A DNA stretch of 64,000 nt from an uncultured Spirochaetales bacterium (GTDB lineage: Bacteria > Spirochaetota > Spirochaetia > Sphaerochaetales > Sphaerochaetaceae), in NCBI GenBank assembly GCA_949293595.1, contig CASFDW010000004.1, forward strand, positions 55,209-119,208. Reading direction: 5' to 3'. The notes under the pieces were generated by a model. The model saw nothing but the letters and a program-made list of their open reading frames with translations. It was not told where the DNA came from and did not search any database. Made by a program: the position numbers and the translations under genes. Of this stretch, positions 2,765-23,076 are shown one piece after another; the first letter of the stretch is position 1, and the number at the start of each line of letters is the position of its first letter.

Positions 2765-2836
2765 AGCGAAAGACGGGACTTGAACCCGCGACATCCACCT
2801 TGGCAAGGTGGAGCTCTACCACTGAGCTACTTTCGC
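2765..2836 (-). tRNA. tRNA-Gly(GCC)
   Basis: The complement folds as a 72-nt cloverleaf with acceptor gcgaaag/ctttcgc, the T-loop sequence ggttcaagtcc, and anticodon GCC in the loop cttgcca. CCA is not encoded. It is the last gene of the His-Arg-Lys-Leu-Gly operon. Confidence 0.93.
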
Positions 2837-2848
2837 ATTTTTGACTCT

Positions 2849-2928
2849 TGCGAGAGAAGGGACTCGAACCCTTAAGCCGAAGCACTAGTTCCTAAGACTA
2901 GCGTGTATACCAATTCCACCACTCTCGC
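2849..2928 (-). tRNA. tRNA-Leu(TAG)
   Basis: The complement has acceptor gcgagag/ctctcgc, anticodon stem ctagt/actag with loop cttagga (anticodon TAG, reading CUA), a short class II variable arm (gcttcggct) and a standard T-arm. CCA is not encoded. Confidence 0.9.
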
Positions 2929-2967
2929 AGTTTTTCACCACTTCCGCAGTGGTTGGTATATAAGTCT

Positions 2968-3040
2968 TGAGCCGCAAAGGGATCGAACCTTTGACCCGCA
3001 GATTAAGAGTCTGCTGCTCTACCAGCTGAGCTAGCGGCCC
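2968..3040 (-). tRNA. tRNA-Lys(CTT)
   Basis: The complement has acceptor gggccgc/gcggctc with one G-T pair, anticodon stem gcaga/tctgc, loop ctcttaa giving anticodon CTT, and T-loop ttcgatc. It is 73 nt with no encoded CCA. Confidence 0.92.
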
Positions 3041-3051
3041 ATTGTTGGAAT

Positions 3052-3125
3052 CGCGCCCTGTAGGACTCGAACCTACGACCTGCGGATTCGAAGTCCGATA
3101 CTCTATCCAGCTGAGCTAAGAGCGC
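3052..3125 (-). tRNA. tRNA-Arg(TCG)
   Basis: The complement has acceptor gcgctct/agggcgc, anticodon loop cttcgaa (anticodon TCG), and T-arm gtaggttcgagtcctac. The outermost pair of the anticodon stem (27-43) looks like a T-C mismatch; otherwise the cloverleaf is normal. Confidence 0.9.
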
Positions 3126-3130
3126 TTTTG

Positions 3131-3203
3131 GGTGGAAGAAGGGATTCGAACCCTCGACAACCAGATCCACAATCTGGCGCTCTACCACTGAACTACTTCC
3201 ACC
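3131..3203 (-). tRNA. tRNA-His(GTG)
   Basis: The complement has anticodon stem ccaga/tctgg with loop ttgtgga (anticodon GTG). An extra 5' G (base 3203) faces a discriminator C (base 3131), the G-1:C73 pair characteristic of histidine tRNA. It is the first gene of the tRNA operon. Confidence 0.92.
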
Positions 3204-5157: not shown

Positions 5158-5178
5158 GGACAAACTGCCGGCTTGTCC
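5158..5178. repeat. Hairpin just upstream of tnpB, possible left end of the IS element
   Basis: ggacaa (5158-5163) and ttgtcc (5173-5178) form a perfect 6-bp stem around a 9-nt loop. IS200/IS605 elements carry subterminal imperfect palindromes recognised by TnpA, so this may be a left-end hairpin. No TnpA gene accompanies it. Confidence 0.35.
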
Positions 5179-5190
5179 GATTCTATGGGC

Positions 5191-6357
5191 ATGAGACAGT
5201 TTTTGGCAAGATGCTACAGGGCATACCCGACTGAAAAGCAGCAATCATACATACATAGGATGTTCGGATGCCAGAGAAAGGTCTGGAACGAGCTTCTTTG
5301 TGCCAAGATCGAGCATCACAAGAAGTTTTGCAGGACGTTGAGGAACCATCCCTCCGACCTTGAAAGAAGCTTTCCATATTTAAACGAGGTGGATCAGGTG
5401 CCTCTTGCCAATACCTTGCTGGAATTGGAAAAGGCTTGGGATCACTGTATGAAGAGTGGGAAGTATCCAGATTTCATCCCGAAGAACAAGGAGAAGAAGT
5501 CATACGTCCTTCTTTCCTCCAGGAACGATCTGTCCGTTGTTTTCAGAAGCAAGCGGAACAATCACGTCAGCTTTGGAAATCTCGGATGGCTTAAATTCAC
5601 GTGTCACCGTCCGTTTCCCACGGGTGGAAGGCTTCTGCATGCTAGACTTTCGAACCGGTTTGCCGGATGTTACCACATATCCTTCTGCTTTGAAATAGAT
5701 GCCGAGGTAAAAACCCGGCCCGTGGAGACTGATTTGGTGGAGGGGCTAGACTACAGCCAGACGAAGCTTGCCGTTTCCTCAAGCGGGATGTTCGATCCGG
5801 GAAGCGAGGAAATCCATTGGTACAGGAACCTTGAGGACAGGTTGGCTCACGAGCAGAAAAAACTCTCCAGGATGGAGCTTTTCTCAAGGAATTGGTGGAA
5901 GCAGAAAAACAGGCTGGCCAAAATACATTCAAAAGCAGTGTGCAGGAGAAATGATTTTTTGCACAAATATTCCCATTGCCTGGCTGTATCAAGATCCGCC
6001 GTTGCCGTCGAAGATATTGATATGAGGGTCATGGCAAGGAAAAAACATATGGGAAAAAACGCCATGGACAACGGATGGGGGAAGCTGCGCAGGTTCCTAT
6101 CATACAAGCTTGAGTCACGTGGAAAGAAACTTGTTGTGATCCCATGGTATTTCCCGTCAAGCAAACTATGCGGTTTCTGCGGCTATGTGAACAATTCAAT
6201 CACCTTGGACGACCGGACGATAACCTGTCCGTCTTGCCATCATGTGTATGACAGGGACCTGAACGCGGCAGAAAACATTAAAAGAGAAGGAATAAGGCTT
6301 TTGAGAACCGGAGGGCCTCCGGGGATTGCCCGCTGGAAGATTCCGTCGGGAAGTTGA
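5191..6357 (+). CDS. tnpB: IS200/IS605-family TnpB, RNA-guided endonuclease
   Basis: About 388 residues, the length of a complete TnpB. TnpB proteins are RNA-guided nucleases related to Cas12 that help keep IS605-type elements in the genome. All expected parts are visible, counted from this start: an N-terminal helix-turn-helix/wedge region (MRQFLARCYRAYPTEKQ), RuvC-I Asp187 in EGLDYSQTKLAV, RuvC-II Glu274 in AVEDIDMR, a zinc ribbon with CGFC (327-330) and CPSC (346-349), and RuvC-III Asp356 in DRDLNAAENI. ATGs at 5185 and 5191 are both possible, without a clear ribosome binding site. No tnpA is in the window, so the copy is solitary. It is inserted between a minus-strand SDR and a minus-strand deacetylase gene. 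Confidence 0.93.
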   Translation: MRQFLARCYRAYPTEKQQSYIHRMFGCQRKVWNELLCAKIEHHKKFCRTLRNHPSDLERSFPYLNEVDQVPLANTLLELEKAWDHCMKSGKYPDFIPKNKEKKSYVLLSSRNDLSVVFRSKRNNHVSFGNLGWLKFTCHRPFPTGGRLLHARLSNRFAGCYHISFCFEIDAEVKTRPVETDLVEGLDYSQTKLAVSSSGMFDPGSEEIHWYRNLEDRLAHEQKKLSRMELFSRNWWKQKNRLAKIHSKAVCRRNDFLHKYSHCLAVSRSAVAVEDIDMRVMARKKHMGKNAMDNGWGKLRRFLSYKLESRGKKLVVIPWYFPSSKLCGFCGYVNNSITLDDRTITCPSCHHVYDRDLNAAENIKREGIRLLRTGGPPGIARWKIPSGS

Positions 6358-9647: not shown

Positions 9648-10535
9648 ATGATAGATTATCGAGTACGAACATTTCTGGAAGCTGCCAGAACCTTGAATTT
9701 CTCCAAGGCCGCATCTGGTCTGAACCTGACTCAACCTGCAGTAAGCCAGCATATCAGAAGTCTGGAGGAGGAATACGGGGTGAAGTTTTTCATCCACGAG
9801 GGAAAGAAAACCTGTCTGACAAGACAGGGAGAACTGTTTTATGCGACGGCTTCCAGGATTGCTGGCGATGATGCTGGATTGAGGATGCGGCTGAAGAAGA
9901 TGGACGAGTCATACCTGAGGTTTGGTGCGACCTTGACAGTGGGAGCCTATGTTATGCCGGAGATACTGTCGTGCCTGCTTGAAGACAATCCTGACCTTAA
10001 AGTAAGGATGAATGTGGACAATACAGACATGTTGTTGAAATCACTTGAGCTCGGAGAGGTTGATTTCGCTGTGGTCGAGGGCTATTTCGACGGCACGAGG
10101 TTCTGTCATGAGAGACTTGCATCCGTCCGTTATGTCGCAGTCGCAAAAAAGAATCTGATAAAGGATAAGGCACGTTTCCGCGACCTTTTCGAATACAGGC
10201 TCATTGTAAGGGAAAAGGGGTCGGGAACCCGGGATGTGCTTGAGAGGCATCTTGCAGAAATGAACCGCGGGATATCGGATTTCAAGTGGATTTATGAGAT
10301 CGGGAACCCGGAGGCGATCAAGGAAATGGTCGGAAATGGTTTGGGAGTATCGTTTCTGTACGAACCTGCTGTCAGAAAGGAACGGGAGGCCGGTCTTCTG
10401 GATGTCGTCGATTTGAAGGATTTCGACATAAGGCATGATTTTTCCTTTGTGTGGAACAGAAACAGCATATTCGAAGAAAGGAATCGGGAGTTGTGCAGAA
10501 TGATGCGTGGAGCCTGCGCTCATCTGGGTCTGTGA
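9648..10535 (+). CDS. LysR-family transcriptional regulator
   Basis: A 295-residue protein with the N-terminal winged helix-turn-helix (TLNFSKAASGLNLTQPAVSQ, residues about 15-35) followed by a LysR substrate-binding domain. The start is supported by AAGGA eight bases upstream. It is transcribed away from the TrxR-like flavoprotein gene, with a dyad between them, so it most likely controls that gene in response to an unknown small molecule. Its 3' end overlaps the 3' end of the convergent phosphoesterase gene by 16 bp. Confidence 0.9.
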   Translation: MIDYRVRTFLEAARTLNFSKAASGLNLTQPAVSQHIRSLEEEYGVKFFIHEGKKTCLTRQGELFYATASRIAGDDAGLRMRLKKMDESYLRFGATLTVGAYVMPEILSCLLEDNPDLKVRMNVDNTDMLLKSLELGEVDFAVVEGYFDGTRFCHERLASVRYVAVAKKNLIKDKARFRDLFEYRLIVREKGSGTRDVLERHLAEMNRGISDFKWIYEIGNPEAIKEMVGNGLGVSFLYEPAVRKEREAGLLDVVDLKDFDIRHDFSFVWNRNSIFEERNRELCRMMRGACAHLGL

Positions 10536-13688: not shown

Positions 13689-13714
13689 GGGCTGCGGTGC
13701 AGCCCGTTTTTTTT
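13689..13714 (+). terminator. Terminator after the amino-acid binding protein gene
   Basis: GGGCTGC (13689-13695) and GCAGCCC (13699-13705) form a perfect 7-bp stem with loop GGT, followed by GTTTTTTTT. Confidence 0.92.
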
Positions 13715-13741
13715 GCAAGCATGGCTCGTTTCGCATATAAT
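13713..13741 (+). promoter_or_regulatory. Strong promoter predicting a leaderless amrB mRNA
   Basis: TTGCAA (13713-13718), exactly 17 bp, then a perfect TATAAT (13736-13741). The start of transcription, about seven bases after the -10 box, falls on the A of the amrB ATG at 13748. No ribosome binding site precedes that ATG. Confidence 0.75.
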
Positions 13742-13747
13742 GACCAT

Positions 13748-14542
13748 ATGGAGAGAAAAGCTGTATTTGCCGGATCATGGTATCCTGACAGCCCCCGCGG
13801 TCTTGACGCGATCATCGATTTTCAGGGACATGGGGGAAGCTACCGTCATGCAATACTCCCTCATGCAGGGCTTTATTACAGCGGTGCATTGATAAAAAGT
13901 TTTTTTTCAGGGCTGGACGAACGGATCGGCAGGATACTGATAATCGCTCCTTCACATTACCATCGTATCAAAAGCGATGTTTTCACGGTTTCCTCGTTCA
14001 CATCGTCCGAAACCCCTTATGGAAGCATCGTCACCGTACCTTTCGCTCCAAATCCGTGCGTTGTGGACGACAGGGCTGTCGCGGACGAGCATGCGGTCGA
14101 GATGTTCCTCCCTTTCATCAAGAAGCATGGAGGATTGGATGTGTCTTATGCCCTTGTGAACCATGTGTCCGGTTATGATGCGATAGTCCGTCTGTCCGAT
14201 ATCCTGAGCAGTCATGTGGATGAAGAAACATCAGTGATAGCCTCGAGCGATTTCACGCACTATGGAAGAAGATTCGGCTATGAACCGTATGGCAGTGGGG
14301 CTTTGGAGCGGGTGAGGGATGAGGATATGAAATGTGCTGGACTCCTTGCCTCGGGGAGAACGGAGGAGGCGTACGATATGTACTCGGACAAGACCATATG
14401 CGGCCTTGTGCCTGCATTGCTGGTTTCCCGCATGGCCGTGTTGAAGGGGCTTGAGGGTATGATCGGTCCCTATGCAACAAGTGCCGGCAGAGACGGAGGA
14501 AGAAATGATTTCGTCTCGTATTGCGATGTTTTCTGGAGATGA
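13748..14542 (+). CDS. amrB: AmmeMemoRadiSam system protein B (MEMO1 family)
   Basis: A 264-residue MEMO1-family protein beginning MERKAVFAGSWYPDSP, the usual N-terminus. The family's conserved positions are visible: PHAGLYYSG with His39, IIAPSHYHR, and the late SSDFTHYG segment, plus a cysteine near the end (VSYC). MEMO proteins resemble class III extradiol dioxygenases; a metal site is formed by these His and Cys residues, but the bacterial function is not established. It is the first of three overlapping or nearly overlapping genes with amrA and amrS, the conserved AmmeMemoRadiSam set. The start at 13748 matches the family and lies on the predicted transcription start. Confidence 0.92.
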   Translation: MERKAVFAGSWYPDSPRGLDAIIDFQGHGGSYRHAILPHAGLYYSGALIKSFFSGLDERIGRILIIAPSHYHRIKSDVFTVSSFTSSETPYGSIVTVPFAPNPCVVDDRAVADEHAVEMFLPFIKKHGGLDVSYALVNHVSGYDAIVRLSDILSSHVDEETSVIASSDFTHYGRRFGYEPYGSGALERVRDEDMKCAGLLASGRTEEAYDMYSDKTICGLVPALLVSRMAVLKGLEGMIGPYATSAGRDGGRNDFVSYCDVFWR

Positions 14543-14545
14543 ACC

Positions 14546-15067
14546 ATGGATAGGACTGTCAGAGTGGAACTTCTTGAGCTTTCCAGATGTTCGATAAGAA
14601 GTGCTTTCACGGGAGAGCCATTGCCGATTCCCGATACAAATATGCGTCGCGGTGCCTTCGTGACGTTGAGGATCGGGGGTGAGCTGAGAGGCTGCATAGG
14701 TTATCTGGAGCCTGTGGCACCTCTTTTTGAACAGATAGCCATGCTTGCACGTGATGCCGCATTCAAAGATCATAGGTTCGACCCTTTGACAGCAAAGGAG
14801 CTTGAGCTGTGCAGGATCGAGATATCGTTGCTGTCACATCCCGTGCCGATACTCTCAACTGATGATTTCGTGATGGGAGAGCACGGGATAATAATGAGCG
14901 TTGGAAACAGGCGTGCGGTGTTTCTGCCCCAGGTTGCGGAAGAGACCGGATGGTCGAAGGACGAGCTTCTTTCCGCATTGGGCCGCAAGGCCGGTCTTCC
15001 GCCGGATGCCTGGAAGGCCCCTGATGCATCGTTCAGCGTTTTTACCGCCGAGGTGTTTTCGGAATGA
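14546..15067 (+). CDS. amrA: AmmeMemoRadiSam system protein A (AMMECR1 domain)
   Basis: A 173-residue AMMECR1-domain protein. The family hallmark LRGCIG is at residues 47-52 (Cys50), preceded by GAFVTLRIGGE and followed by LARDAAFKDHRF. The molecular role of AMMECR1 is unknown; association with MEMO and a radical SAM enzyme in many prokaryotes suggests a joint modification of a protein or small molecule. It starts three bases after the amrB stop codon and overlaps the radical SAM gene by four bases (ATGA), so all three proteins are made from one message. Confidence 0.93.
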   Translation: MDRTVRVELLELSRCSIRSAFTGEPLPIPDTNMRRGAFVTLRIGGELRGCIGYLEPVAPLFEQIAMLARDAAFKDHRFDPLTAKELELCRIEISLLSHPVPILSTDDFVMGEHGIIMSVGNRRAVFLPQVAEETGWSKDELLSALGRKAGLPPDAWKAPDASFSVFTAEVFSE

Positions 15068-15996
15068 TATGCGATTTCTGCTACAGGATGTGCGACATAC
15101 CGGAAGGTGGAACCGGTTTCTGTCTCAGCCGCTTCAACGACAGGGGGAATCTCAAGGATCTTTGTTATGCAGGACTGGCCTCCATGGCCGTGGATCCGGT
15201 GGAAAAAAAACCGCTCAATCATTTCCTGCCCGGGACCCGTACCCTGTCGATTGCAATGCAGGGATGCAATTTCACCTGCGACTTCTGCCAGAATCATGAG
15301 ATTTCACAGCACCATGTCATGCGCGACGCGGTCGACCCGGCGGTTGTTGCCGGATATGCTGAGGCCTGCGGATGCCCCTCGATCAGCTATACGTATTCGG
15401 AACCCATGGTATGGCAGGACTACATGCTTGAGGTTGCGTCCCTGGCCCATGCCAGGGGTCTGCTTAACATCATGGTGACCAACGGAAGCTTTTCAGCCGC
15501 CTCCCTGGAGAGGATCCTGCCTTGCATTGATGCATACAACATCGACCTCAAGGGGGATGAGGAATTCTACAGGAACATATGCCATGCCTCTGCCGGACCG
15601 GTTCTGTCATCGATCGAGAGGATCGTCGGATATGGTTCGCATCTTGAGGTGACGACCATGGTCATCGAAGGCATCCACAATGAGGAAATGATAGGTGCCC
15701 TTGCATGCATGCTTGAAAGGCGTGGTGTGAATGTATGGCATCTGTCAAGGTTTTATCCGATGTACAGGATGCGGGATAGGAAGCAGACCGGAGAACTTTT
15801 CCTGAAGGATATGATCGCTATTGCCTCGTCCCATGGGATTCCTTTCATATATCCAGGAAACAGCAGCCTCCCGGATATGTGCAGATGTCCATCCTGCGGC
15901 ATGTCCATCCACCGTCCAGGAGCCGACGGGCTCTGCCCTGTCTGCGGACGGAAGCTTTACGGCGTGTACGGTGATCCCTTTTCAAAAAAGACTTGA
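15064..15996 (+). CDS. amrS: AmmeMemoRadiSam system radical SAM enzyme
   Basis: A 310-residue radical SAM enzyme. The cluster-binding CxxxCxxC is at Cys68, Cys72 and Cys75 in QGCNFTCDFCQNHEIS. An N-terminal segment with four more cysteines (positions 3, 6, 10 and 20) and a C-terminal zinc ribbon (CRCPSCGMS...LCPVCGRKL) flank the barrel, as in PflA-related members of this set. It should generate a 5'-deoxyadenosyl radical; the substrate is unknown. ATGA overlap with amrA couples translation. Together with amrA and amrB it forms a complete AmmeMemoRadiSam operon. Confidence 0.92.
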   Translation: MICDFCYRMCDIPEGGTGFCLSRFNDRGNLKDLCYAGLASMAVDPVEKKPLNHFLPGTRTLSIAMQGCNFTCDFCQNHEISQHHVMRDAVDPAVVAGYAEACGCPSISYTYSEPMVWQDYMLEVASLAHARGLLNIMVTNGSFSAASLERILPCIDAYNIDLKGDEEFYRNICHASAGPVLSSIERIVGYGSHLEVTTMVIEGIHNEEMIGALACMLERRGVNVWHLSRFYPMYRMRDRKQTGELFLKDMIAIASSHGIPFIYPGNSSLPDMCRCPSCGMSIHRPGADGLCPVCGRKLYGVYGDPFSKKT

Positions 15997-16036: not shown

Positions 16037-16969
16037 GTGGAACGTGATGGGAATCTGATGAAGGGACATTTGGCCGCAGTTGCAACCGTTTTTCTTTGGG
16101 GGACCACGTTCATCTCCACAAAAATACTTCTGGAGCATTTCTCGCCGTCCGCAATCCTTGTCCTGCGGTTCATCATCGGCTATCTCGCGCTCCTTGTATT
16201 CAATCATGAGATCATTCCTTTTTCCGATAAGGGGAGGGAGGTTGTCTTCGCTTCTGCGGGATTGACAGGAGTCTGCCTGTACTATCTGCTTGAGAACATG
16301 GCGTTGACCTACACCCAGGCGGCAAATGTCTCCGTCGTGGTCTCATCCGCGCCTCTGTTCACGTTCATTCTCTCGTATTTCCTCTCCGGATGCAGGCAGA
16401 AGGTTTCTCCGGGGTTCGTTCTGGGATTTCTTCTGGCCCTGACAGGTATCGGACTGATAAGTTTTGCGGGAACCTCGTTCGAACTCGATCCCGTCGGGGA
16501 CCTTTTGTCGGTGGTTGCCGCAATTGTCTGGTCAATTTACGCCGTATTGGTAAGGAAGATAGCTTCATATGGCTTTGGCGTCATCAGCACAACAAGGCGT
16601 ATTTTCTTTTATGGTATTGTTTTCATGGTACCGTTTTCCTTATTCCTTGGTTTCGATGCCGATTTGAATGCCTTCTCAAATCCTGTCGTGGTGTTCAATC
16701 TTCTTTATCTCGGAATCGGTGCCTCGGCCGCATGTTTTGCAATATGGAATTATTCTGTCTCGATACTCGGTCCGGTGAAAACAAGCATTTACATCTATGC
16801 CATACCGTTGGTGACGGTCGTCTTCTCCGTTTTCCTTCTTTCGGAAAAGCTCAACGTACTGTCATCCTTCGGAATAGTGCTTACGATTTTGGGCCTGTTC
16901 CTTTCAAATGGGGGAGAACCGGGGGAAAAAAAACCAAATCGACGTTTTCTTGCATGCCGGCGGGGTTGA
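16037..16969 (+). CDS. EamA/DMT-family permease
   Basis: A 303- to 310-residue inner-membrane protein with about ten hydrophobic helices in two EamA repeats (first begins AAVATVFLWGTTFISTKILL, second DLLSVVAAIVWSIYAVLVRK). Members export metabolites or amino acids, or take up nucleotide-sugar-like compounds; the substrate cannot be judged. GTG at 16037 is chosen because GGAGG lies five bases upstream; ATG at 16058 is the alternative and matches the usual family start. The gene follows amrS by 40 bp and may be part of that transcript. Its last codons contain the -35 box of the next gene. Confidence 0.85.
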   Translation: MERDGNLMKGHLAAVATVFLWGTTFISTKILLEHFSPSAILVLRFIIGYLALLVFNHEIIPFSDKGREVVFASAGLTGVCLYYLLENMALTYTQAANVSVVVSSAPLFTFILSYFLSGCRQKVSPGFVLGFLLALTGIGLISFAGTSFELDPVGDLLSVVAAIVWSIYAVLVRKIASYGFGVISTTRRIFFYGIVFMVPFSLFLGFDADLNAFSNPVVVFNLLYLGIGASAACFAIWNYSVSILGPVKTSIYIYAIPLVTVVFSVFLLSEKLNVLSSFGIVLTILGLFLSNGGEPGEKKPNRRFLACRRG

Positions 16970-16993
16970 CCGCGCACATGATGCATGTATACT
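16966..16993 (+). promoter_or_regulatory. Promoter of the CoA-disulfide reductase/siroheme reductase fusion gene
   Basis: TTGACC (16966-16971), a 16-bp spacer and TATACT (16988-16993), each five of six consensus bases. Transcription would start about 25 bp before the ATG at 17025. The -35 box overlaps the stop codon of the EamA gene. Confidence 0.7.
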
Positions 16994-17024: not shown

Positions 17025-19589
17025 ATGAAGGTACTGGTGCTGGGCGGGGTTGCCGCCGGAACTAAGGCTGCGGCCAAGTTCAAAAGGGAAAACAGGGAGT
17101 CGGAGGTGAAGATCCTCACCAAGGATGATGACATATCCTATGCCGGATGCGGTCTTCCGTATTATGTCGGAGGAATGATACGTACGCGTGGGGAGCTCAT
17201 TGTCAACACACCGGAAAAGTATTCATCCCTGACCGGAGTGGAGGTCGTGACGGGGGCCGAGGTCGTGTCCGTGGACACCGTTTCCCATATTGTATCGTAT
17301 GTTAAGGATGGTATCGGATGCAAGGAGTCATACGACAGTCTGGTGATCGCAACCGGAGCCTCCGCCTTCATGCCGGAGATTGAGGGAAGCAGGTTGGAGG
17401 GGGTTTTCAAGGTCAGGACACCCTCCGATGCGGTTTTGCTCAGGGATTATGCCGACAGGGAGGATGTCGGATCCGCCGTTGTCGTCGGTGCAGGATTCAT
17501 AGGTCTTGAGATCGCCGAGAACCTGCTTGCAAAAAAACTTGATGTCACGGTGATAGATTCCGCCGACCAGATAATGCCGAACGCCTTCGACTACGAGATG
17601 GCGGAATGGGTCAGGAAGAAGATTGCATCCCGTGGGGTGAAGGTACTTGTGTCCACGGGGATAAAGGCGGTGCGTGGCGAGGGACGGGTACGGGCGGTTG
17701 AGACTGCGTCATCCGTTTTGAAGGCCGACCTTGTTGTGCTCGCCATAGGCGTACGTCCGAATACAGCCTTTCTCGAGGGAAGCGGCATAGAGATGTCGAA
17801 GGGCGCCATCCTGGTGGATGAAAAAATGAGGACGAACATCGACGACATATACGCCGCCGGTGACTGCGCCCTCGTCATGAACAGGCAGACAGGCAGGAGG
17901 ATGTATTCCGCGATGGGATCCACTGCGAATATTTCGGCGCGCGTGCTCGCGAAGGTCCTGGCCGGCAAGGAGGCATCATACCATGGTGCGTTCGGAACCG
18001 GTGTCGTGAAGGTCCTGGATAATCTGAATGCGGGACGCACGGGACTGACCGAGGCCCAGGCCGTCTCGGCCGGATATGATCCGGTCAGCGTTGTGGCAGT
18101 GACCGATGACAAGGCCCACTACTACGAGGGATCATCCATGTTCGTCACAAAGCTTGTCGCGGACAAGAAGACGAAAAAGCTCCTTGGGATCCAGGTGATA
18201 GGATCCGGGGCCGTCGACAAGATGGTGGACATAGCGGTGACGGGAATAGCCGCAGGCATGGAGTTGTCCGATTTTGACACGCTGGATTACGCCTATGCGC
18301 CTCCGTTCTCCACGGCGATACATCCGTTTGTGCAGGCCTGTTACATATTGGAGAACAAGATTTCGGGTGTTTTCGAGACCATCACCCCGTATGAGTATCT
18401 GAAGAACGGCGCGGCGGGCTACAGGGTGATTGATGCGCTTCCTGAAAAGACCATACCAGGTGCGGAATGGGTCGATATAGCCAAGGTGGAGGATTCCATT
18501 CCAGGTATTGCAAAGGATGAGAAGCTGCTGCTTGTTTGTGCGAAGGGCAAGAGGGGGTATTTCCTCCAGAACAGGCTCAAGGCTGCCGGATACACCTCGA
18601 CAAGGGTTCTTGAGGGCGGCATCACCTTCAATGAAGTGAAGATCGATTTCGGCTCCGTCATCCCGGAGTCGGAAGTCAGGAGGGTCAAGGGACTAGGGTG
18701 TCTGCAGGACAAGAGGAACCCTGGCCGTTTCAACGTGAGGGTCATAACTGTCAACGGAAAGATCACGAGCGAACAGCACAAGGTCATCGCCGAGGCCGCC
18801 GAGCTTTTCGGGTCCGGTGAGATCACGATGACAACCAGGCTCACGCTCGAGATACAGGGGGTCCCGTACGGGAATATAGAGCCGTTGAGGGAATTCATAT
18901 CGAAAGCCGGGCTTCAGACAGGAGGAACCGGGTCCAAGGTGCGTCCTGTGGTGTCATGCAAGGGGACCACCTGCCAGTACGGACTCATCGACACATTCGC
19001 CCTGTCGGAGAAGATACACCGTATTTTCTATGAGGGATGGCATGATGTTTCGCTTCCGCACAAGTTCAAGATTGCGGTCGGTGGATGTCCGAACAATTGT
19101 GTGAAACCTGATTTGAACGACCTGGGGATAGTCGGCCAGAAGGTCATTTCCTTCAACATGGACAAATGCAGGGGCTGCAAGGTGTGCCATGTTGTCACAT
19201 CCTGTCCGATAAAGGTCGCCTCATTGAAGGACGGCAGGCTGTTTGTTTCTCAGGATGGATGCAATCATTGCGGACGTTGCGCCTCTTCCTGTCCATTCGG
19301 TGTTACAGCCGATTGGACGACCGGATACAAGATCTTCATCGGCGGCCGGTGGGGCAAGAGGGTTGCCATGGGCCGTCCCTTGTCAAGGATCCTTTCATCG
19401 GAGGACGAGGTGCTGTCGGTGATAGAAAAAGCCATACTGCTGTTCAGGGACGAGGGGGAGAGCGGCGAGCGCTTTGCCGATACCGTTTCAAGGCTTGGCT
19501 TCGGGTATGTGGAGAAAAAACTGTTCGATACCGTGATGGACAAGGAAAGGATATTGGGGAAGGACGTTGTCGGCGGGGCAACCTGCTGA
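17025..19589 (+). CDS. Fusion enzyme: CoA-disulfide reductase, rhodanese, siroheme reductase and ferredoxin domains
   Basis: An 854-residue cytoplasmic protein. Residues 1-450 are a CoA-disulfide/persulfide reductase: FAD motif GGVAAGTKAAAKF, active-site Cys42 in SYAGCGLPYY, NAD motif VVVGAGFIGLE (152-162), FAD motif AAGDCALV. Residues about 455-540 are a rhodanese domain with candidate catalytic Cys505 (LLVCAKGKRGYF). Residues about 565-710 are a nitrite/sulfite reductase domain with Cys645, Cys650, Cys688 and Cys692 (CKGTTC...GGCPNNC) for the coupled siroheme-[4Fe-4S] centre; the first spacing is CX4C rather than the common CX5C. Residues 715-756 hold two [4Fe-4S] ferredoxin motifs. CoADR-rhodanese fusions are known; adding a siroheme reductase suggests a one-chain route from NAD(P)H through persulfide to sulfide. 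Substrate is inference. Confidence 0.88.
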   Translation: MKVLVLGGVAAGTKAAAKFKRENRESEVKILTKDDDISYAGCGLPYYVGGMIRTRGELIVNTPEKYSSLTGVEVVTGAEVVSVDTVSHIVSYVKDGIGCKESYDSLVIATGASAFMPEIEGSRLEGVFKVRTPSDAVLLRDYADREDVGSAVVVGAGFIGLEIAENLLAKKLDVTVIDSADQIMPNAFDYEMAEWVRKKIASRGVKVLVSTGIKAVRGEGRVRAVETASSVLKADLVVLAIGVRPNTAFLEGSGIEMSKGAILVDEKMRTNIDDIYAAGDCALVMNRQTGRRMYSAMGSTANISARVLAKVLAGKEASYHGAFGTGVVKVLDNLNAGRTGLTEAQAVSAGYDPVSVVAVTDDKAHYYEGSSMFVTKLVADKKTKKLLGIQVIGSGAVDKMVDIAVTGIAAGMELSDFDTLDYAYAPPFSTAIHPFVQACYILENKISGVFETITPYEYLKNGAAGYRVIDALPEKTIPGAEWVDIAKVEDSIPGIAKDEKLLLVCAKGKRGYFLQNRLKAAGYTSTRVLEGGITFNEVKIDFGSVIPESEVRRVKGLGCLQDKRNPGRFNVRVITVNGKITSEQHKVIAEAAELFGSGEITMTTRLTLEIQGVPYGNIEPLREFISKAGLQTGGTGSKVRPVVSCKGTTCQYGLIDTFALSEKIHRIFYEGWHDVSLPHKFKIAVGGCPNNCVKPDLNDLGIVGQKVISFNMDKCRGCKVCHVVTSCPIKVASLKDGRLFVSQDGCNHCGRCASSCPFGVTADWTTGYKIFIGGRWGKRVAMGRPLSRILSSEDEVLSVIEKAILLFRDEGESGERFADTVSRLGFGYVEKKLFDTVMDKERILGKDVVGGATC

Positions 19590-19734: not shown

Positions 19735-20652
19735 ATGCCTGATCGTCGTTTTTTCCCCATTGTGATGGTTTTTCTTGTCTTTTCCTGCCTGCCTGTGTTT
19801 TCTGTGGAGTTCACCGATTCAGTGGGAAGGTCTGTCGATGTCGGCGGGACCGGGGCCGTTGCCTGCCTCAATTCCTCTTTGGCGGACATCTGGACTCTTG
19901 CCGGTGGAAAAGTGGATATAACGGTCGGGGATGCGGTATCCAAGGGATATGCTGGAACGGATGCGGTACTGGTGGACAGCGGTGCAGGTATCAGCATCGA
20001 TCTTGAGATGCTTGTCTACAGCCGTCCTGATTTCGTGCTTGCCTCCGCGGATACCCCGAGCCATGTCCGGGCTTCGGAAAAGCTTGACGACCTCAAAATA
20101 CCCAATGCCCTTGTAAGACTTGACTGCTTCGATGATTTTTACAATATTTTCTCCACTTTGACAAAAATCACAGGTAGAATGGATCTTTTCGAGATCCATG
20201 GGGAAGGGCAGAGGAAAGAGATCGGACGGATCGTGGAGAAGGCATTGCAAAACGATGAAAGGCCGTCCGTCCTGTTCATCCGTGCCGGAAGCGGTTTCTC
20301 CTCAACGCGTGCGAAAACGAGGGACGAGCATTTTGCCGCCGGAATCCTGTACGATCTGGGGGCCGGGAACATCGCGGATTCCGCCCCCGTGCTTTCGGAA
20401 GGACTTTCGCTCGAGGCGGTGCTCGTCGGCGATCCGGATTTCATATTGGTTGTCCCCCAGGGAAACGAGGATGCCGGCATCGCATACATGAAGGATCTGT
20501 TGGACCGTCCCGGTTGGAGAAGCCTTCGGGCGGTAAGGGATGGCCATGTGTTCTTCCTTCCCAAGGAACTATTTCATTACAAGCCGAATGGAAGATGGGC
20601 AAAGGCCTATGAACTGATGGCGGACATCCTTTATCCGGAGGCATCTGAATGA
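19735..20652 (+). CDS. Metal-chelate/cobalamin-type ABC importer, periplasmic binding protein
   Basis: A 305-residue binding protein of the FecB/BtuF class (Peripla_BP_2). A hydrophobic signal sequence (VMVFLVFSCLPVFS) precedes EFTDSVGRSVDVGG, the usual first strand of the family, and the C-terminal lobe contains SLEAVLVGDPDFILVVP. The family binds ferric siderophores, haem or vitamin B12; the ligand cannot be read from the sequence. It opens a three-gene importer operon (four-base overlap with the permease) that sits between a siroheme-enzyme gene and a chelatase gene, so iron, haem or a corrinoid are the likely cargos (inference). I saw no cobalamin riboswitch upstream. Confidence 0.85.
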   Translation: MPDRRFFPIVMVFLVFSCLPVFSVEFTDSVGRSVDVGGTGAVACLNSSLADIWTLAGGKVDITVGDAVSKGYAGTDAVLVDSGAGISIDLEMLVYSRPDFVLASADTPSHVRASEKLDDLKIPNALVRLDCFDDFYNIFSTLTKITGRMDLFEIHGEGQRKEIGRIVEKALQNDERPSVLFIRAGSGFSSTRAKTRDEHFAAGILYDLGAGNIADSAPVLSEGLSLEAVLVGDPDFILVVPQGNEDAGIAYMKDLLDRPGWRSLRAVRDGHVFFLPKELFHYKPNGRWAKAYELMADILYPEASE

Positions 20653-21623
20653 AGAGAATGCCAATATGTTCCTTCCTTGCCGTTTCCTTGCTTCTGGTGC
20701 TGGCCGTTGTCTTTGCGTTGGGCTCGGGAAGTTCGGGAATGTCGTTTCCGGAGTTTTTTTCGGGTGACGTGACGGCCAGGGTGATTATCCTGGATCTCCG
20801 GCTGCCAAGGGTTCTCGGGTCAGTTCTCGCCGGAGCGGCTTTGTCCGTGTCGGGTGTCCTGATACAGAGCGCAACGGCTAACGGGCTAGCCTCTCCGAAT
20901 GTTGTCGGAATAAATGCGGGGGCGGGGTTCGCCGTGCTTTTGTTCCTGTCTTTTTTCCCGTCTGCGTTCTCCCTTCTGCCTTTTGCCGCCTTTGCCGGAG
21001 CATTGTCCGCGGTCTTCGTCGTCATCTCCGTCTCCGTCCTTGCACGCAGTTTCGATGGGAAAACGACGCTTGTGCTTTCAGGTGTGGCGGTAGGTGCGCT
21101 GTTCAATGCGGGGATATCGGCCGTTTCCGCCCTGGATCCGGATGTGCTTTCTACATACAGCGCATTTTCGATCGGAGGTTTTTCCGGCCTTTTCATGGAT
21201 GCGCTTGCGATTCCGTCCGTGCTGATTCCGGTGTCTGTCATGCTTTCTTTGTTTCTGGCTCCGAGGCTCAACTATCTTCTGCTCGGCGACGAGATGGCGT
21301 CTTCGATGGGTGTCAGGGTTGTGAGGCTCAGGATCATGGCCTTGTTGCTAGGTTCTTTCCTGGCCGCCACAGCCGTATCGTTTGCGGGCCTGCTTGGATT
21401 CGTCGGACTCGTTGTTCCTCATGCCGCAGGTTATGTGGTGGGGAGCGACATGAGATACAGGATTCCTTTCTCGTGTCTTCTTGGTGCCCTGCTTGTCACC
21501 ATGGCAGATCTCCTCGGCCGTATCGTTGTACGGCCATCAGAGCTTCCTGCCGGAATCTTCATGGCTGTCCTCGGAGTGCCGTTCTTCCTGTATCTTTTGC
21601 TTAAAAGGAGGACATATGGTTGA
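20649..21623 (+). CDS. FecCD-type ABC importer permease
   Basis: A 324-residue inner-membrane permease with about nine to ten hydrophobic helices. FecCD/BtuC hallmarks are present: LRLPRVLGSVLAGAALSVSG near residues 50-70, ATANGLASPNVVGINAGAG, and FVGLVVPHAAG near residue 260. It forms the channel of the importer whose binding protein is encoded just upstream. Its start overlaps the upstream gene by four bases (ATGA), and its end overlaps the ATPase gene by eight bases. Confidence 0.92.
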   Translation: MKRMPICSFLAVSLLLVLAVVFALGSGSSGMSFPEFFSGDVTARVIILDLRLPRVLGSVLAGAALSVSGVLIQSATANGLASPNVVGINAGAGFAVLLFLSFFPSAFSLLPFAAFAGALSAVFVVISVSVLARSFDGKTTLVLSGVAVGALFNAGISAVSALDPDVLSTYSAFSIGGFSGLFMDALAIPSVLIPVSVMLSLFLAPRLNYLLLGDEMASSMGVRVVRLRIMALLLGSFLAATAVSFAGLLGFVGLVVPHAAGYVVGSDMRYRIPFSCLLGALLVTMADLLGRIVVRPSELPAGIFMAVLGVPFFLYLLLKRRTYG

Positions 21624-22362
21624 GGTTTGCAATCTTTCCCTGCGGCTTGGACGGAAAAGAATCCTGGACGGTGTGTCCTTTTGCCTGAAGGATGGGAGCA
21701 TAACCGCGCTCCTGGGACGGAACGGGAGTGGAAAAAGCAGCCTCATACGCTGTCTGTGTTCGTATTACGGCCGTTACGACGGCGAAATCCGTTATGACGG
21801 CAGAAAGCTGGACAGCTTCCCTTTTTCGGAAAGGGCATCCCTTCATTCGCTTCTGCCTCAGAACGTGCCGATCGTCGACATCTGCCTTGAACGGCTGCTT
21901 CGTTTTGCCGCATCCTCCTGCGGCATGGGTGAAAGGGCTGCGGAGGAGAGGATGACAAGCATACTGGAGTTCTCCGGCCTGGGTGGGTTTTCCTCCACTC
22001 CTGTTTCAAGGATGTCGGGTGGCGAGCGCCAGCTGGCCTTCATTGCCTTCATGATGATGAGGCGGAGCATGGCGTACTATCTCGACGAGCCTGAGGCCCC
22101 GTTGGATGCCGGATACAAGCTGAAGGCCGAGGCTGCCATGAAAAGGCTGAGAAACGAGGGACGTGCCGTGCTTGTCTCCATGCATGACATAAACAGGTCC
22201 CTGTCGTTTGCCGACAGGTTGCTGGTCCTGGATCGCGGCAGGCTTGTATTCGACGGGGATCCGGCCTCTTTCATCTCCTCCGGCTGCGGCGGCACGTGCT
22301 TTGGATTGGAATTGAGGAATCTGACGGACGAAGAAGGAAACACGTTCCAGCTGTTTTTATGA
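21616..22362 (+). CDS. FecE/BtuD-type ABC importer ATPase
   Basis: A 248-residue ABC ATPase: Walker A GRNGSGKSS, signature MSGGERQLAF, Walker B YYLDEP and switch His in SMHDIN. It powers the FecCD-type importer. The start at 21616 has AAAGGAGG close upstream and lies inside the last codons of the permease gene. The 3' end overlaps the convergent chelatase gene by six bases, so no separate terminator fits between the two. Confidence 0.92.
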   Translation: MVEVCNLSLRLGRKRILDGVSFCLKDGSITALLGRNGSGKSSLIRCLCSYYGRYDGEIRYDGRKLDSFPFSERASLHSLLPQNVPIVDICLERLLRFAASSCGMGERAAEERMTSILEFSGLGGFSSTPVSRMSGGERQLAFIAFMMMRRSMAYYLDEPEAPLDAGYKLKAEAAMKRLRNEGRAVLVSMHDINRSLSFADRLLVLDRGRLVFDGDPASFISSGCGGTCFGLELRNLTDEEGNTFQLFL

Positions 22363-23076
22363 CAATCGTTCCAGATGGGATAGCCAGAGGGTTCTGAATG
22401 CACCGTCGGATGCAAGGCCCGACTTGATCACGGATGTCTCGAAACCCCTTGATGCCAGAAGGCTTACGAGGCTTTCCGGCCCGCTTCCGCATATCTCATT
22501 TTTGCAGTGATGGCCGAACGTCACCATCAGCGGAACGATGAGAACCCTTTTTGAACCGATTCTTTCCGCTGAACTGCGGAAATCCTTGCAGCCGTTCATG
22601 AGGCACACTATGAAATCGTTTCTCCCGATTGAGTGGAGCCTGTGCTCCAAAGCTTCGTATTCAAGGTTCTCTCCACCCGCAACCCCGTGTCCGGCCAGCA
22701 TGACGGTACGTCCATATTCCGGCATGTATTTTGATGCGAGGATGTCCGCAGCCCTTGTCATGTCGTCTTCGGAGGAAAGAAGCGGGGGTGCCAGGAGTGC
22801 ATCGTACTCCTCTGCCATGATGCGTATCGTCTCGTATCCGCCACCACAGGTCAGATGCGTCGGCTGGACGAGTATGCGCCCGCGCGCCATTTCAAGCGCC
22901 TCGCTGAAATGGATATGTCCTGATTGAGGATGGGATTCAATGATGCTGCGGCATGTGAACGCCCTTGCCGACGGGACTGCCAGTCTTTTTTCGAACGAGT
23001 CCTCCAGCATCTCAAGCTCTTTCAGTGCGCTTTTATCCGACGTTCCGAATGATACGGTGATGAGAAATCTGTCCAT
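22357..23076 (-). CDS. cbiK: CbiK-type sirohydrochlorin cobalto/ferrochelatase
   Basis: A 239-residue class II chelatase of the CbiK type. It starts MDRFLITVSFGTSD, and the metal-binding histidines are visible in MLAGHGV (His130) and MVTFGHHC (His189/190), at about the spacing of the two catalytic histidines of CbiK. These enzymes insert cobalt (anaerobic B12 synthesis) or iron (siroheme) into sirohydrochlorin. Next to a siroheme-dependent fusion enzyme and a metal/cofactor importer, iron insertion for siroheme is attractive, but cobalt cannot be excluded. There is no signal peptide, so it acts in the cytoplasm. Confidence 0.78.
   Translation of the reverse strand: MDRFLITVSFGTSDKSALKELEMLEDSFEKRLAVPSARAFTCRSIIESHPQSGHIHFSEALEMARGRILVQPTHLTCGGGYETIRIMAEEYDALLAPPLLSSEDDMTRAADILASKYMPEYGRTVMLAGHGVAGGENLEYEALEHRLHSIGRNDFIVCLMNGCKDFRSSAERIGSKRVLIVPLMVTFGHHCKNEICGSGPESLVSLLASRGFETSVIKSGLASDGAFRTLWLSHLERLS

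Follow-up and report, generated by a model that had tools for sequence, protein, structure and literature searches.

How a bacterium without the known genes for making siroheme comes to carry a predicted siroheme enzyme, and why that enzyme is joined in one chain to a module resembling persulfide reductases, are the questions raised by a locus of an uncultured Spirochaetales bacterium. The stretch analysed, termed the window, comprises 64,000 nucleotides of contig CASFDW010000004.1 (positions 55,209 to 119,208 of assembly GCA_949293595.1). At 17025-19589 its plus strand contains an uninterrupted frame, from ATG 17025 to stop 19589, that encodes an 854-residue fusion of CoA-disulfide reductase (CoADR), rhodanese, siroheme sulfite reductase and ferredoxin modules, and a putative importer is encoded downstream. 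The reading favoured here is a single-chain enzyme that reduces sulfur compounds with a scavenged tetrapyrrole cofactor. The fuller proposal, that a dedicated siroheme or sirohydrochlorin importer lets gut anaerobes without tetrapyrrole synthesis run a sulfite reductase, and that a cysteine arm moves sulfur between siroheme and the persulfide reductase, is preferred by a narrow margin over its negation.

The start codon at 17025 is preceded by a purine-rich sequence of the ribosome-binding type, AAGAGGACG, and orthologues align starting at the Met encoded there. An upstream in-frame ATG is also present at 16908, and it was rejected because the ribosome-binding and promoter context together with the orthologue starts favour 17025. 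Pfam matches comprise, from N- to C-terminus, Pyr_redox_2 (2e-59) with the dimerisation domain Pyr_redox_dim, Rhodanese (1e-5), NIR_SIR_ferr (1e-13) and NIR_SIR (3e-27), the last of which encloses a 4Fe-4S dicluster. The intact frame and these domains bear out the four modules that the original prediction, made from the sequence alone, had placed in one chain in this order. Its statement that all key cysteines are present also holds in the orthologue alignment, where conservation extends over C42 (SYAGCGLPYY), C505 (LVCAKGKRG), C645/C650 (CKGTTC), C688/C692 (GGCPNNC), eight ferredoxin cysteines and the terminal C854. The fusion is a single-copy gene in the 2.07-Mb source genome, in which no second NIR_SIR protein was found.

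The C-terminal half belongs to the sulfite reductase superfamily by both of its domains (NIR_SIR 95.4 bits, cut-off 27; NIR_SIR_ferr 50.9 bits, cut-off 24), and its nearest solved relative is the F420-dependent sulfite reductase Fsr (E about 1e-38). All twelve Fe-S cysteines of the fusion pair one-to-one with Fsr, while Fsr residues R355, R388, R423, K460 and K462 align to R572, R605, R640, K680 and K682, respectively. Four sulfite ligands and an assimilatory-type arginine have been named in Fsr (PMC10229431); the four basic ligands R572, R640, K680 and K682 are invariant in the present family, as is R605 at the arginine position, and these five residues and the Fe-S cysteines are unchanged in a 25-member alignment reaching down to 34% identity. 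A model of the domain, computed with an alignment of relatives as input, displays a mean pLDDT of 92.7 and a pTM of 0.88, and a Foldseek search with it returned Fsr as best match (7npa/7np8; E 7e-26), followed by DsrAB and assimilatory enzymes. The siroheme pocket is thus predicted to form. These residues and this fold indicate that the C-terminal half very probably has sulfite reductase activity. Because no member of the sulfite-binding set of Fsr and the assimilatory enzymes is missing from the pocket, sulfite appears to be the best-supported substrate, ahead of polysulfide at the siroheme. Of the sulfur, polysulfide or sulfite reductase proposed originally, the sulfite option thus gains from the five basic residues, while polysulfide at the siroheme is less supported.

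The four cysteines predicted to bind the siroheme-coupled cluster are all present, the first pair being spaced CX4C. This spacing is fixed across the fusion family and invariant in the same 25-member alignment, in contrast with the CX5C...CX3C arrangement of the superfamily; subunit C of the anaerobic sulfite reductase (AsrC) from three organisms has CX5C, as does Fsr (PMC10229431). The CX4C pair, correctly singled out as unusual from the outset, is by alignment a signature of the family.

The N-terminal half was compared with solved structures through a model of the whole chain (pLDDT 83), which does not reliably place one half against the other (pTM 0.63). Its closest solved structures are a CoA-persulfide reductase (8a56) and Npsr (6pfz), matched across ~540 residues at 33-34% identity, with an rmsd of 2.1-2.4 and a TM score of 0.93 to the target. 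No fused protein covering C42 and C505 has lost either cysteine, and these residues, together with the FAD/CoA fold and the rhodanese, are what is expected of NADH-dependent persulfide reductases. Scores fall below the cut-offs of the CoA-disulfide reductase models (TIGR03385, 377 against 578.8 bits; NF007123, 379.5 against 458 bits), and on predicted fold and residues this half is classed only as CoADR-rhodanese/Npsr-like. In Npsr the rhodanese cysteine takes sulfur, which bound CoA carries on to the FAD-site cysteine (PMC7969121). By analogy with the solved relatives, the N-terminal half probably has persulfide reductase activity; the part of the original prediction that had sulfane sulfur or CoA-persulfide enter on the rhodanese and FAD modules fits this half well.

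Full-length orthologues with ~60-85% identity were recovered from many independent Spirochaetales and Clostridia assemblies. An assembly artefact or chance fusion was rejected because the orthologues span these many assemblies and different phyla. The nearest named relatives are from uncultured Spirochaetales and Candidatus Ornithospirochaeta, then from Clostridia (Oscillospiraceae and others). In the family of the source organism the fusion is carried by 23 of 60 genomes, a count that includes three copies cut at contig ends; others have only a CoADR-rhodanese of ~540 residues. The two halves are also found as adjacent separate genes, at locus L036 and at the Clostridia loci L095, L098, L100, L101, L104, L105, L107 and L109, and at other loci the sulfite reductase domain occurs without CoADR-rhodanese, many Clostridia having the domain alone. 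This distribution makes the term 'self-contained', applied to the enzyme originally, doubtful, and so does the lack of known siroheme-making genes in the source organism. Of the gene neighbours examined, none was recognised as AsrA or AsrB. One apparent match to the sulfite reductase domain ('SIRdom', L080) is a ferredoxin/PNPOx protein and was excluded from all counts. A gene for a YeiH-family putative sulfate exporter (TIGR00698) lies near the sulfite reductase and transporter genes at five loci (L104:3762-4841, L098, L100, L101 and L109).

The extreme C-terminus of the fusion and the genes that follow it did not figure in the original prediction. A GGATC or GGASC end was observed in 35/35 tree-set proteins with a fused or adjacent CoADR-rhodanese and in 0/14 of those without, in a 49-row set from which duplicate loci had been removed. 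Sequence identity fails to account for this pattern: L083, with 69% identity to the window domain, lacks both tail and CoADR, while L095, at 54%, has both. On a maximum-likelihood tree, tail and CoADR partner each need five changes, and these coincide. The tail may provide a cysteine that swings to exchange sulfur or electrons, which suggests a sulfur hand-off. Because the halves are fused in some lineages and neighbouring separate genes in others, and because the tail tracks the CoADR partner, they are proposed to cooperate.

The genes expected to supply siroheme were not found. Uroporphyrinogen methyltransferase (SUMT) was absent from 60/60 genomes of the family, including the source genome, while the same search gave a match in 13/14 control genomes; gaps in metagenome-assembled genomes (MAGs) were rejected as the explanation on these two counts. 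A hidden SUMT in the source genome was likewise discarded, as its sole TP_methylase is RsmI. HemC was not found in 38/38 family genomes tested, nor HemB in 9/9 fusion carriers tested in the family. Judged by gene absence, no known route to siroheme operates in the source organism.

Downstream of the fusion lie, in order, an ATP-binding cassette (ABC) substrate-binding protein (SBP), a FecCD permease, an ABC ATPase and a convergent CbiK-like chelatase. Because a terminator-like hairpin follows the fusion gene, the transporter may be transcribed as a unit of its own. This layout repeats in most intact Spirochaetales loci and in several Clostridia loci. With an SBP profile, orthologues scoring at least 346 bits were recovered from 23/23 fusion carriers of the family, while the maximum in the other 37 genomes was 70 bits (0/37; Fisher p about 4e-17, kinship ignored). 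CbiK occurs in 11 family genomes, every one a fusion carrier. The window protein keeps the CbiK histidine pair and exceeds the Pfam cut-off (89.7 against 26.2 bits), and its score of 50 bits does not reach the NCBIfam equivalog cut-off of 400.

Among Clostridia, the SBP was detected in 50/391 genomes, and a sulfite reductase domain lies near it in 26 of 40 fetched loci. One of these 26 (L093) presents CbiK-SBP-FecCD-ATPase opposite an AprA-AprB-CysD-CysN-sulfhydrylase-SiR operon. Among the other fetched loci, at L092:7604-10938, a Met8 of the precorrin-2 dehydrogenase/ferrochelatase type sits between the transporter SBP and permease genes, a placement that suggests a metal-free precursor as cargo there. 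At another of these, on a 3.5-Mb Clostridia contig (L111:6904-8888), a gene for the radical SAM protein NirJ2 (TIGR04055, 542 bits, cut-off 500) overlaps the SBP start, which would tie the transporter to siroheme-derived tetrapyrroles. Genome content in Clostridia provides an independent test, in which those that make siroheme lack the transporter, with one exception: the fusion carriers G104-106 are without the SBP and encode SUMT and HemB, HemD and HemC lying in the same loci, while the carriers G100, G102, G103 and G107 have the SBP and are without HemB and without SUMT over the cut-off. Because the transporter is repeatedly associated with siroheme enzymes in differing gene orders, it likely imports a siroheme-type tetrapyrrole, siroheme or sirohydrochlorin. 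The cargo would be siroheme, sirohydrochlorin or precorrin-2, and lineages that have CbiK or Met8 may differ in this from those that do not. The exception, G101 (L047), is mixed: its transporter genes are in the same operon as a Met8-SUMT-HemD fusion, whereas a search of the genome did not find HemB, so that either a contig is missing or an earlier intermediate could be imported.

Several observations weigh against these proposals. Since G101 has both the transporter and Met8-SUMT-HemD, import and synthesis are not strictly exclusive, and distant members of the SBP family lie beside cobalamin genes (L114, L115, L117), so that the ligand of the transporter may vary. The transporter and enzyme genes adjoin, and their co-occurrence in the family may partly reflect joint inheritance. 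Roughly half of the carriers have no CbiK, which also diverges quickly (23-29% identity), its role being apparently not essential or not uniform, and the genomes surveyed are MAGs. The match between tail and CoADR represents 3-5 independent events, of which three contrasts are well supported, and a sign test is not significant (p 0.25). CX4C in place of CX5C could alter the cluster or the substrate. Finally, standalone sulfite reductase domains occur without CoADR, so the core needs no FAD half.

In the proposed mechanism the C-terminal siroheme-[4Fe-4S] core, of Fsr/AsrC type, would reduce sulfite to sulfide with electrons passed through its own 2x[4Fe-4S] ferredoxin insert, and the N-terminal NADH-dependent CoA-persulfide reductase with its rhodanese would carry sulfane sulfur through CoA to sulfide. 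In the coupling that appears most likely, the rhodanese would split thiosulfate or take persulfide, the FAD half would receive sulfane sulfur and the siroheme half sulfite, and the flexible GGATC cysteine arm would pass sulfur or electrons between them. The closest physiological precedent, by analogy, is the pairing of a rhodanese with an anaerobic sulfite reductase reported as a thiosulfate-reduction route disposing of reductant in Halanaerobium (PMC5497025). That the halves work jointly on thiosulfate or persulfide, linked through the tail, is advanced tentatively, with a probability a little short of even. The alternative coupling would be a direct Fsr-like flow of electrons from NADH through FAD and Fe/S to siroheme. 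The SBP-FecCD-ATPase system, judging by genome content and repeated gene association, would bring in siroheme or a metal-free precursor, into which CbiK, where present, would insert iron.

If only the direct flow operated, the protein would be an NADH-dependent sulfite reductase in which the CoADR FAD only supplies siroheme with NADH electrons via the ferredoxin insert, the rhodanese being a passenger. Fsr couples a flavin donor module to the same core (PMC10229431), and the siroheme of NirB, whose model matches the fusion below cut-off, is fed by an NAD-linked FAD module. Against such an arrangement, which is considered rather unlikely, C42 and C505, required only for persulfide chemistry, are retained in every fused protein covering them, the halves are often separate proteins in Clostridia, and the cysteine tail is seen only with a CoADR partner. 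Less probable by far is the main idea of the original prediction, a polysulfide or persulfide reductase whose siroheme acts on sulfane sulfur instead of sulfite: rhodanese and CoADR do handle sulfane sulfur (PMC7969121), but neither the complete basic set for sulfite nor the assimilatory-type arginine varies, a sulfane-sulfur module is lacking in standalone members, and one member (L093) lies within a sulfate-assimilation operon. Such cores often accept nitrite, Fsr itself preferring it by Km (PMC10229431) and Fsr group II being a nitrite reductase (PMC9295563). A nitrite (or selenite) reductase is nevertheless judged the most improbable of the alternatives, as the pocket keeps all four sulfite residues, unlike that of Fsr group II, and the neighbours are sulfur genes (rhodanese, AprA, CysDN, YeiH), with none recognised for nitrogen oxides.

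For the transporter, the competing explanation is a different cargo, namely ferric siderophore, heme or cobalamin, with a regulatory or incidental link to the enzyme. FecCD and ATPase family members do transport siderophores, heme and B12, iron supply would likewise suit an Fe-S enzyme, and a cobalamin riboswitch precedes the SBP in 1 of 18 sources scanned (L117:7395-7571), a distant member next to cobalamin genes. No such riboswitch was found in the sulfite-reductase-linked loci scanned, and a cobalamin importer was rejected for them on this contrast. The perfect match of transporter and enzyme across the family, the lack of SUMT, HemC and HemB in the family genomes tested, and the repeated linkage to siroheme enzymes in differing arrangements (L047, L092, L093, L111) further argue against another cargo, which is considered unlikely.

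Fsr group I (7np8, 7npa) shares with the fusion the core with its 2x[4Fe-4S] ferredoxin insert, the sulfite-binding residues and an N-terminal flavoprotein. In the fusion, however, that N-terminus is Pyr_redox_2/rhodanese and lacks an FrhB-type F420H2 oxidase, so the protein is not classed as Fsr, from which it also differs by CX4C, by the cysteine tail and in that the cell apparently does not make its cofactor. Relatives in which the domain stands alone resemble AsrC in size, layout and two clusters, whereas identity to AsrC is 25-27% and scores with TIGR02912 are 100-128 bits against a cut-off of 324; the fusion itself, at 100.5 against 324.1 bits, is not a member. The NirB large subunit also combines NAD-linked FAD and siroheme modules in one chain, in contrast without a rhodanese, and its model gives 206 bits against a cut-off of 578. 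The fusion is not a dissimilatory DsrAB either, as it has R605 and two separated cysteine pairs, whereas DsrA has Thr and DsrB has CXnCCX3C (PMC10229431). Members of the CoADR-rhodanese family (Npsr 3nta, AfNpsr 6pfz, CoAPR 8a56, CoADR-RHD 3icr) share the FAD-CoA-rhodanese layout and both cysteines; their chains stop after the rhodanese, while the fusion continues with the sulfite reductase and cysteine tail. The transporter is of the same FecB/FecCD/FecE-type class as heme, siderophore and corrinoid importers (IsdE, BtuCDF), and its SBP differs from these in forming a separate group linked to genes for sulfite reductase and siroheme. The sulfite reductase core and the CoADR-rhodanese are thus of known kinds, while no description of siroheme uptake, of a CoADR-rhodanese-sulfite reductase fusion or its AsrC/Fsr relatives, of the CX4C signature, of the cysteine tail or of the ligand of this SBP group was found in the openly licensed literature searched.

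Table 1. Features of the fusion gene and its downstream neighbours (window coordinates).
Feature	Position	Strand	Basis
Promoter-like site TTGACC-16-TATACT ahead of fusion gene	16966..16993	+	consensus match only
Fused CoADR-rhodanese-siroheme sulfite reductase-ferredoxin protein, 854 aa	17025..19589	+	frame, Pfam, orthologues
CoA-persulfide/disulfide reductase module (FAD, NADH), catalytic Cys42	17025..18344	+	Pfam Pyr_redox_2, Pyr_redox_dim; solved structures
Rhodanese module, Cys505 in CAKGKRG loop	18387..18629	+	Pfam, conservation
Siroheme-[4Fe-4S] sulfite reductase domain (NIR_SIR_ferr + NIR_SIR)	18711..19517	+	Pfam; model; Fsr match
CX4C half (C645, C650) of siroheme-coupled cluster motif	18957..18974	+	alignment
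CX3C half (C688, C692) of siroheme-coupled cluster motif	19086..19100	+	alignment
Inserted 2x[4Fe-4S] ferredoxin domain, eight cysteines matching Fsr	19149..19304	+	Pfam, Fsr alignment
C-terminal GGATC tail ending in Cys854	19572..19586	+	tail/partner correlation
Terminator-like GC hairpin and T run past fusion stop codon	19599..19616	+	consensus match only
ABC substrate-binding protein (SBP; Peripla_BP_2), proposed siroheme/sirohydrochlorin binder	19735..20652	+	Pfam-type domain, co-occurrence
FecCD-type permease	20649..21623	+	domain match
ABC ATPase; top NCBIfam match heme ABC ATPase, under cut-off	21610..22362	+	domain match
CbiK-family sirohydrochlorin chelatase-like protein, convergent; invariant H130, H190	22357..23076	-	Pfam, alignment

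Elsewhere in the window, a LysR regulator at 9648..10535 (+) belongs to a group whose members are often encoded beside these sulfite reductases in Clostridia; it is distant from the fusion here, and a link between the two is uncertain. Adjacent genes at 13697-15996 for Memo-like, AMMECR1-like and pyruvate-formate-lyase-activating-type radical SAM proteins resemble, by eye, the AmmeMemoRadiSam trio. An open reading frame at 5173-6357 displays, also by eye, a C-terminal zinc-ribbon motif like that of TnpB/IS605 OrfB, CGFCG...CPSCHHVYDRDLNAAENI. Overlapping frames at 31-1913 contain GLUG-like repeats of the surface-protein type and are apparently interrupted or frameshifted, and five tRNA genes are clustered on the minus strand at 2765-3202.

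Gut sulfide production is usually predicted from DsrAB or AsrABC. Surveys of this kind may overlook the fusion family, which is neither of these and occurs in spirochaetes and Clostridia of the animal gut. Through the cysteine tail, persulfide and sulfite chemistry would be connected in a new way, and the proposed transporter provides a concrete gene set for the question of siroheme import. If siroheme is imported, it would be a further shared tetrapyrrole alongside heme and B12, and these bacteria would rely on their neighbours to reduce sulfite or thiosulfate, through siroheme auxotrophy and cross-feeding.

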